From Thermococcus zilligii AN1 (GTDB taxonomy: Archaea; Methanobacteriota_B; Thermococci; Thermococcales; Thermococcaceae), in the NCBI RefSeq assembly GCF_000258515.1, contig NZ_AJLF01000001.1:496001-560000 (forward strand): DNA of 64,000 bases, written 5' to 3'. Positions 182 through 682 of the stretch are shown piece by piece; position 1 is the stretch's first letter; each line of letters begins with the position of its first letter. The notes below the pieces were generated by a model, which did not search any database, was not told the DNA's origin, and saw only the letters and a program-made list of their open reading frames with translations. Made by a program: the position numbers and the translations under genes.

Positions 182-682
182 GCCCCAAAGTTGCTTCGCC
201 GGTTCTGAAACCCCTCCAGCGACGGGAGCTGGAGGGGCCTGCGTACCAGGTCCCTCCAATTTCCAAAGTTCTAACTTGCCCTGAAACCAGAGTTGTTACT
301 TTGAAAGCCTATTTCAAACTCCTGGAGAATTAATTTCCAAAGTTTCTTCACTAGTCCTGAAACGTACAGGACGACAGAGTAATAAACCACCCATCAGAAC
401 TCAAGGTTTTCTTTCCAAAGTTTCTTCACTAGTCCTGAAACATCCCGGTAGAGGTCAGGAAGGAGGTCCTCGGGTATGTGCCGTTTCCAAAGTTTCTTCA
501 CTAGTCCTGAAACGGAAAAAGTACAGTCGGATCCGGATTTGAAAAGGTTTGTCGAGGCCCTCCGGAGGGAGGGCTTCGAGTTTCCAAAGTTTCTTCACTA
601 GTCCTGAAACCTCCCGACGACGGGAAGTTTCCCTGAGGCCCTCTGGAGCGGGTTTCCAAAGTTTCTTCACTAGTCCTGAAAC
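182..682 (-). CRISPR. Small repeat array, probably a decaying CRISPR
   Basis: Five identical 30-base repeats lie at 334-363, 412-441, 484-513, 581-610 and 653-682. On the plus strand each begins TTTCCAAAGTTTC and ends GTCCTGAAAC. A degenerate copy of 28 bases lies at 260-287 and a more decayed one (22 of 30 matching) at 182-211. Unique spacers are about 48, 46, 48, 42, 67 and 42 bases. Decay is confined to the left, as at the trailer end of CRISPR arrays, and a TATA box reads in from the right, so transcription is probably leftward. In that orientation the repeat starts GTTTCAGGAC and usually ends GGAAAC. Against CRISPR: spacers are long and uneven, several contain hairpins, and no cas gene is in the window. 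Confidence 0.62.
211..237. other. Perfect 10-bp stem-loop in first spacer
   Basis: CCCCTCCAGC at 211-220 is followed by a 7-base loop and the exact complement GCTGGAGGGG at 228-237. It directly follows the most degenerate repeat copy and occupies much of the spacer. A strong hairpin is unusual for a virus-derived spacer and could be part of a structured RNA or a terminator-like end of the array. Confidence 0.6.

Follow-up and report, generated by a model that had tools for sequence, protein, structure and literature searches.

A CRISPR array in Thermococcus zilligii AN1, very probably a satellite of the type III-B (Cmr) system of the same genome

The window analyzed here, that is, the whole stretch of 64,000 nucleotides from contig NZ_AJLF01000001.1 (positions 496,001 to 560,000, forward strand), opens with a set of irregular direct repeats and a long conserved flank, both located between genes of the PspC and YhfC-type membrane protease families. 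The repeats and the intervening spacers are named array A, to distinguish them from three related arrays of this genome (B, C, and D), and the following features are recognized at the locus.

1-181, no strand assigned: GC-rich (70%) block separating the array from the PspC gene, which begins about 49 bases before the window; present only in this genome.
182-211, minus: r7, the distal repeat, GTTTCAGAACCGGCGAAGCAACTTTGGGGC; shares 26/30 positions with the terminal repeat of array C and 22/30 with r1-r5.
212-259, minus: spacer A6, 48 nt, the most distal one, with a 10-bp GC-rich hairpin (211-237) that begins at the last base of r7.
260-287, minus: r6, the penultimate repeat, a 28-base variant, GTTTCAGGGCAAGTTAGAACTTTGGAAA.
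334-682, minus: five identical repeats (334-363, 412-441, 484-513, 581-610, and 653-682) and four spacers; crRNA-sense repeat GTTTCAGGACTAGTGAAGAAACTTTGGAAA.
514-580, minus: spacer A2, 67 nt, a long outlier whose complement is an open coding-like frame, EKVQSDPDLKRFVEALRREGFE.
683-1396, minus: CRISPR leader of roughly 700 bp, 96% identical to leader C within its first 145 bp and about 85% to leader D over its full extent; the outer end includes a 30-codon remnant of the CARF gene beside array D.
729-746, minus: BRE/TATA-like promoter GAAAAGCTTATATAGG, unchanged in leaders A-D; predicted pre-crRNA start about 25 bases downstream.
1397-2137, minus: YhfC-type membrane protease family gene, at the right edge of the inserted segment.

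The irregular repeats at 182-682 are a genuine CRISPR array of seven repeats and six spacers that reads on the minus strand. Five copies of a 30-base repeat (TTTCCAAAGTTTCTTCACTAGTCCTGAAAC), starting at 334, 412, 484, 581, and 653, are identical, whereas shuffled sequences lead to an expectation of 0; their plus-strand sequence ends in GAAAC. The repeat starts are separated by exactly 78, 74, 78, 72, 97, and 72 bases, leaving spacers of 48, 46, 48, 42, 67, and 42 bases; thus, the five identical repeats, the two divergent copies, the spacings, and the 42-67 base range of spacers described in the original prediction were all recovered. The 67-base spacer exceeds the others, yet it lies inside the 35-69 range of relatives, and spacers of about 40-50 bases are normal in the repeat family of array A. 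The locus therefore shows near-identical direct repeats in the 25-40 base range, unique spacers of similar size, a promoter-bearing leader at one side, and divergent repeats at the other, and the CRISPR identity considered in that prediction is confirmed. Since the conserved flank (the leader) lies on the right, array A is read leftwards, and its pre-crRNA would start at the leader TATA box and proceed in this direction.

The leader of array A is not private to it. Within its first 145 bases, leader A shares 96% identity with leader C, 86% with leader B, and 83% with leader D, and leaders A and D agree at about 85% across 648 bases; also, the TATA box (AAAAGCTTATATAGG, minus strand) is invariant across the four. 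A query with the 648-base leader of the window gives five matches in its own genome, at four leaders, together with a match of 72% in G043, the closest relative, and pieces in other genus members. The identity is a mosaic, with leaders A and C sharing 95-97% near the array, A and B 97% at about 802-861, and A and D 92-98% beyond 1222, which points to recombination among leaders. Moreover, translation of leader A at its outer end gives KTLKGAFLPLPFPFFRLHRWAGGPRAEKTS up to a stop codon, matching the C-terminus of the CARF gene beside array D. Given this residual end of the CARF neighbor, leader A was probably copied from the D locus, and recombination with leaders B and C probably homogenized it in part later.

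The genome (1.76 Mb in five contigs) has two cas1 genes. One of them is near an array (L009) with the common Thermococcales-type repeat GTTGCAATAAGACTCTGAGAGAATGGAAAC; the comparison with usual Thermococcales repeats made in the original prediction is apt for this system, but the genus also has another repeat family, in which spacers are longer. The other cas1 gene (C1:690 kb) lies between arrays B and C (repeats GTTTCAGAACCGCCTTAAACAGGCTTGAAAAC and GTTTCAGAACCAGCTTGCAGTTTTGGGAAC), whose spacers measure 41-51 bases except for the 67-base distal spacer of C. It belongs to a locus at C1:687.8-705.1 kb, about 190 kb from array A, where Cas6, Cas1, Cas2, Cmr2, Cmr3, Cmr4, Cmr5, Cmr6, and Csx1 are found above the NCBIfam cut-offs and a RAMP protein is probably Cmr1. 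This locus, with cas1, cas2, cas6, and cmr genes and with its cas frames open, is a complete-looking type III-B system, and array D, with about 30 repeats (L031 4311-6450), is found beyond the cmr genes. Beside array D are a CARF-family gene (L031 7062-8654) and a gene without Pfam match (L031 8747-9952), both possible cyclic-oligoadenylate effectors. Besides the linked cas6 gene, the genome has three others, two of which stand outside both cas1 loci (G000 C1:710771 and C1:844398), and the product of one of these three may be the Cas6 that cuts array A.

Based on these data, array A is very probably a satellite array of the type III-B (Cmr) system of this genome: its leader is common to the cas-linked arrays, and the cas10/cmr effector genes and cas6 are present. 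An orphan CRISPR type, as contemplated originally, is ruled out, as the same leader adjoins the cas1-cas2-cas6-Cmr locus. A cas-linked array with a repeat identical to that of array A was looked for and is absent, the same leader family being found instead. Also, the exact repeat is absent from viral contigs and GTDB species genomes, and a search of 41 genomes with up to three mismatches returned matches in its own genome only. The repeats of arrays A-D share 59-75% identity (59-66% between A and the other three, 63-75% among B, C, and D); their ends are kept (a GTTTCAG start and a GGAAA/GAAA-type end) and their cores are divergent. Array A joins this repeat family through the conserved ends, an identical repeat not being demanded since B, C, and D themselves differ.

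A comparison with G043 delimits the segment that carries the array. In this relative, the genes of the PspC and YhfC-type protease families are adjacent, separated by a gap of 426 bases without an array that holds a short gene, apparently a PadR-like regulator as judged by eye; the same gap is 1,476 bases in the genome of array A, where homology to G043 ends at about position -49 of the window and restarts at 1397. Then, either array A is a gain of this genome, or G043 lost it and has a replacement in its place. The GC-rich block (1-181 plus about 49 bases upstream of the window) is strongly foldable, no other genus genome has it, and it is possibly a structured RNA or insertion debris. Related long-spacer arrays occur in relatives near the same Cas1. 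In G043, the B site (L032 10040-10144) has a leader with just two unequal repeats, and no cas1 closely related to the linked one was found; nor was the linked cas1 found in G066, which has a short leader-bearing array with divergent repeats (L034 10420-10670). Both short arrays are likely decaying orphans. In G054, two arrays with different repeats lie near the same Cas1 family (L054 8625-9027 and 13316-13691), and their leaders have just short conserved pieces in common.

The spacers show a marked strand bias. Open-frame counts gave no separation between strands, and for this reason the bias was assessed by purine content and a codon score. In crRNA sense, pyrimidine-rich spacers number 40 among the 45 informative ones of arrays A-D (p = 8e-8), compared with 8 of 19 (8:11) in the control array of the other system of the genome; among spacers of relatives, the ratio of pyrimidine-rich to not is 77:22. 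For reference, coding strands of the window are purine-rich in 67% of 46-base fragments. Moreover, the codon score favors the complementary strand for 33 of 48 spacers in the genome (p = 0.013) and for 77 of 102 in relatives (p = 2e-7), the signal from array A alone being weak (three of five spacers). A type III effector needs guides antisense to mRNA, and the bias fits spacers of A-D being such guides.

Regarding the targets, searches of phages and plasmids with the spacers of A-D gave only chance-level matches (Klebsiella, E 0.09; Mycetohabitans, E 0.5), so the virus or plasmid matches proposed as a check were not obtained. Seeds of five array A spacers have no match in viral contigs, and A2 searched as a peptide has a single weak phage match (E 0.2). 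In genus genomes, no protospacer was found; weak matches of 85-92% over 24-33 bases to A2 and A6, and two matches to other spacers, were judged to be chance or coding-motif similarity. Little can be concluded from this absence of targets, as collections probably contain few viruses and plasmids of this group.

Two further readings of array A have to be weighed against that of a satellite array. The distinct structured element of the original prediction, a non-CRISPR repeat whose "spacers" carry conserved hairpins, draws on the inverted repeats visible at 211-237 and on the fairly stable A2. The inverted repeats do exist, but spacers as a class are no more structured than shuffles (mean z -0.14 for 50 spacers); a tendency toward structure is seen just in A2 (z -2.2) and A6 (z -1.6), and not in A5 (300-318) or A1 (613-624). 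Moreover, the spacers of array A are in none of the other genomes among the 61 of the genus searched, so the conservation at syntenic positions that would have spoken against CRISPR was not found; the nearest relative lacks the array at its syntenic site, an Rfam search gave no match inside it, and its leader is that of cas-linked arrays. This makes such an element highly improbable. More serious, although still unlikely, is that array A is a dead relic, namely, a copied leader and array that gains no spacers and yields no crRNA. It is short (six spacers) and remote, its repeat differs from those of B-D, and with such a distance from the cas genes and a different repeat, it is perhaps no longer fed or processed; also, shrunken arrays do occur in relatives where the linked cas1 was not found. 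Nonetheless, these probable relics, in G043 and G066, have differing repeats beside the leader, whereas in array A the five repeats nearest the leader are identical to the letter, the leader with its TATA box is intact, and the cognate cas frames are open, evidence that also leaves the "in decay" of the original prediction unsupported. GC-rich hairpins are seen in the most distal spacers of both array A (212-259) and array C (L010 10040-10106), and these could possibly be a terminator or old flank rather than spacers.

The satellite reading leaves the two divergent repeats to be explained. Degenerate distal repeats are common in CRISPR arrays, including those of Pyrococcus abyssi (PMC3124441), and r6, with 28 bases, is a deletion form; then, r6 and r7 could be decayed copies of the main repeat, as "progressively decayed" implied. 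This is somewhat unlikely and a poorer description, since r7 is closer to the terminal repeat of array C (26/30) than to the repeats of its own array (22/30), and convergence of two independent decays is not expected. For this reason, r7 is probably an ancestral form of the repeat and not a product of decay. As new repeats would be copied from the leader-side repeat, changes there would spread and old forms would persist at the far end. Array D likewise has two repeat forms in blocks, where the alternation of blocks needs rearrangement too. These are 28- and 29-base forms, an arrangement that suggests rearrangement or conversion within array D. As for the divergent cores, they fold better than shuffles, with a summed stem score of 137 compared with 105.7 +/- 6.4 (0 of 2000 shuffles) for 17 distinct repeats taken together from the genome and its relatives. 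Since these repeats share ancestry, the result supports, without being proof of, selection on a small hairpin of variable sequence in the repeat core.

Taken as a satellite, array A would work as follows. The Cas6 of the III-B locus would cut the pre-crRNA either at the small hairpin or at the ends that the repeats conserve, and the resulting crRNAs would direct the Cmr complex against complementary (mRNA) targets. Also, the shared Cas1-Cas2 would insert new spacers at the leader end, copying the first repeat each time, so changes in this repeat would pass to later ones, generating an array-specific repeat and leaving old forms at the far end. A broader and tentative proposal, with slightly less than even chances, is that one Cas1-Cas2 and one Cas6 set serves four arrays with four repeats, adaptation reading the shared leader and processing reading only the repeat ends together with a hairpin whose sequence is free to vary. 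In that case, the arrays would preserve a fossil record of how repeats evolved, in which recombination keeps leaders alike while repeats drift. The usual expectation is that leader, repeat, and Cas1 change together. Contrary to this joint change, each cell here has four arrays with separate repeat cores under one leader family and one linked cas1-cas2-cas6 set, which offers a natural test of the features that adaptation and crRNA processing read. A further suggestion is that "degenerate" repeats at the distal end can be earlier forms of the repeat and not decay.

Finally, array A is ordinary in kind, being a new satellite array of a known system, and what is mildly unusual is that a single leader family, with one linked cas1-cas2, goes with four different repeats. 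It resembles the arrays of the III-B locus at C1:687.8-705.1 kb in leader, repeat ends (GTTTCAG...GGAAA-type), spacer length, orientation, and spacer strand bias, but it is about 190 kb distant and has its own repeat core. In a multi-array survey (PMC12814883), III-B arrays vary widely in their distance to cas genes, in line with the remote position of array A, and the passages considered from it have no description of repeat divergence under one shared leader. The AB and CD families of Sulfolobus solfataricus and their Cas6 paralogues (PMC4041471) offer a parallel, with several short-hairpin repeats per genome and a Cas6 that may accept more than one of them; Sulfolobus Cas6 enzymes recognize such weak repeat hairpins and vary in their strictness toward the repeat (PMC4041471). 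However, both of those families yield one identical 8-nt handle, whereas the 3' ends of A-D differ (TTTGGAAA, TTGAAAAC, TTGGGAAC, and CTTGGAAA), and here the divergent repeats stand under one leader family. Also comparable are CRISPR 2 and 3 of P. abyssi (PMC3124441), secondary Thermococcales arrays with other repeats and degenerate distal copies; nonetheless, these are described as unexpressed and with divergent or atypical leaders, whereas the leader of array A is intact and shared.
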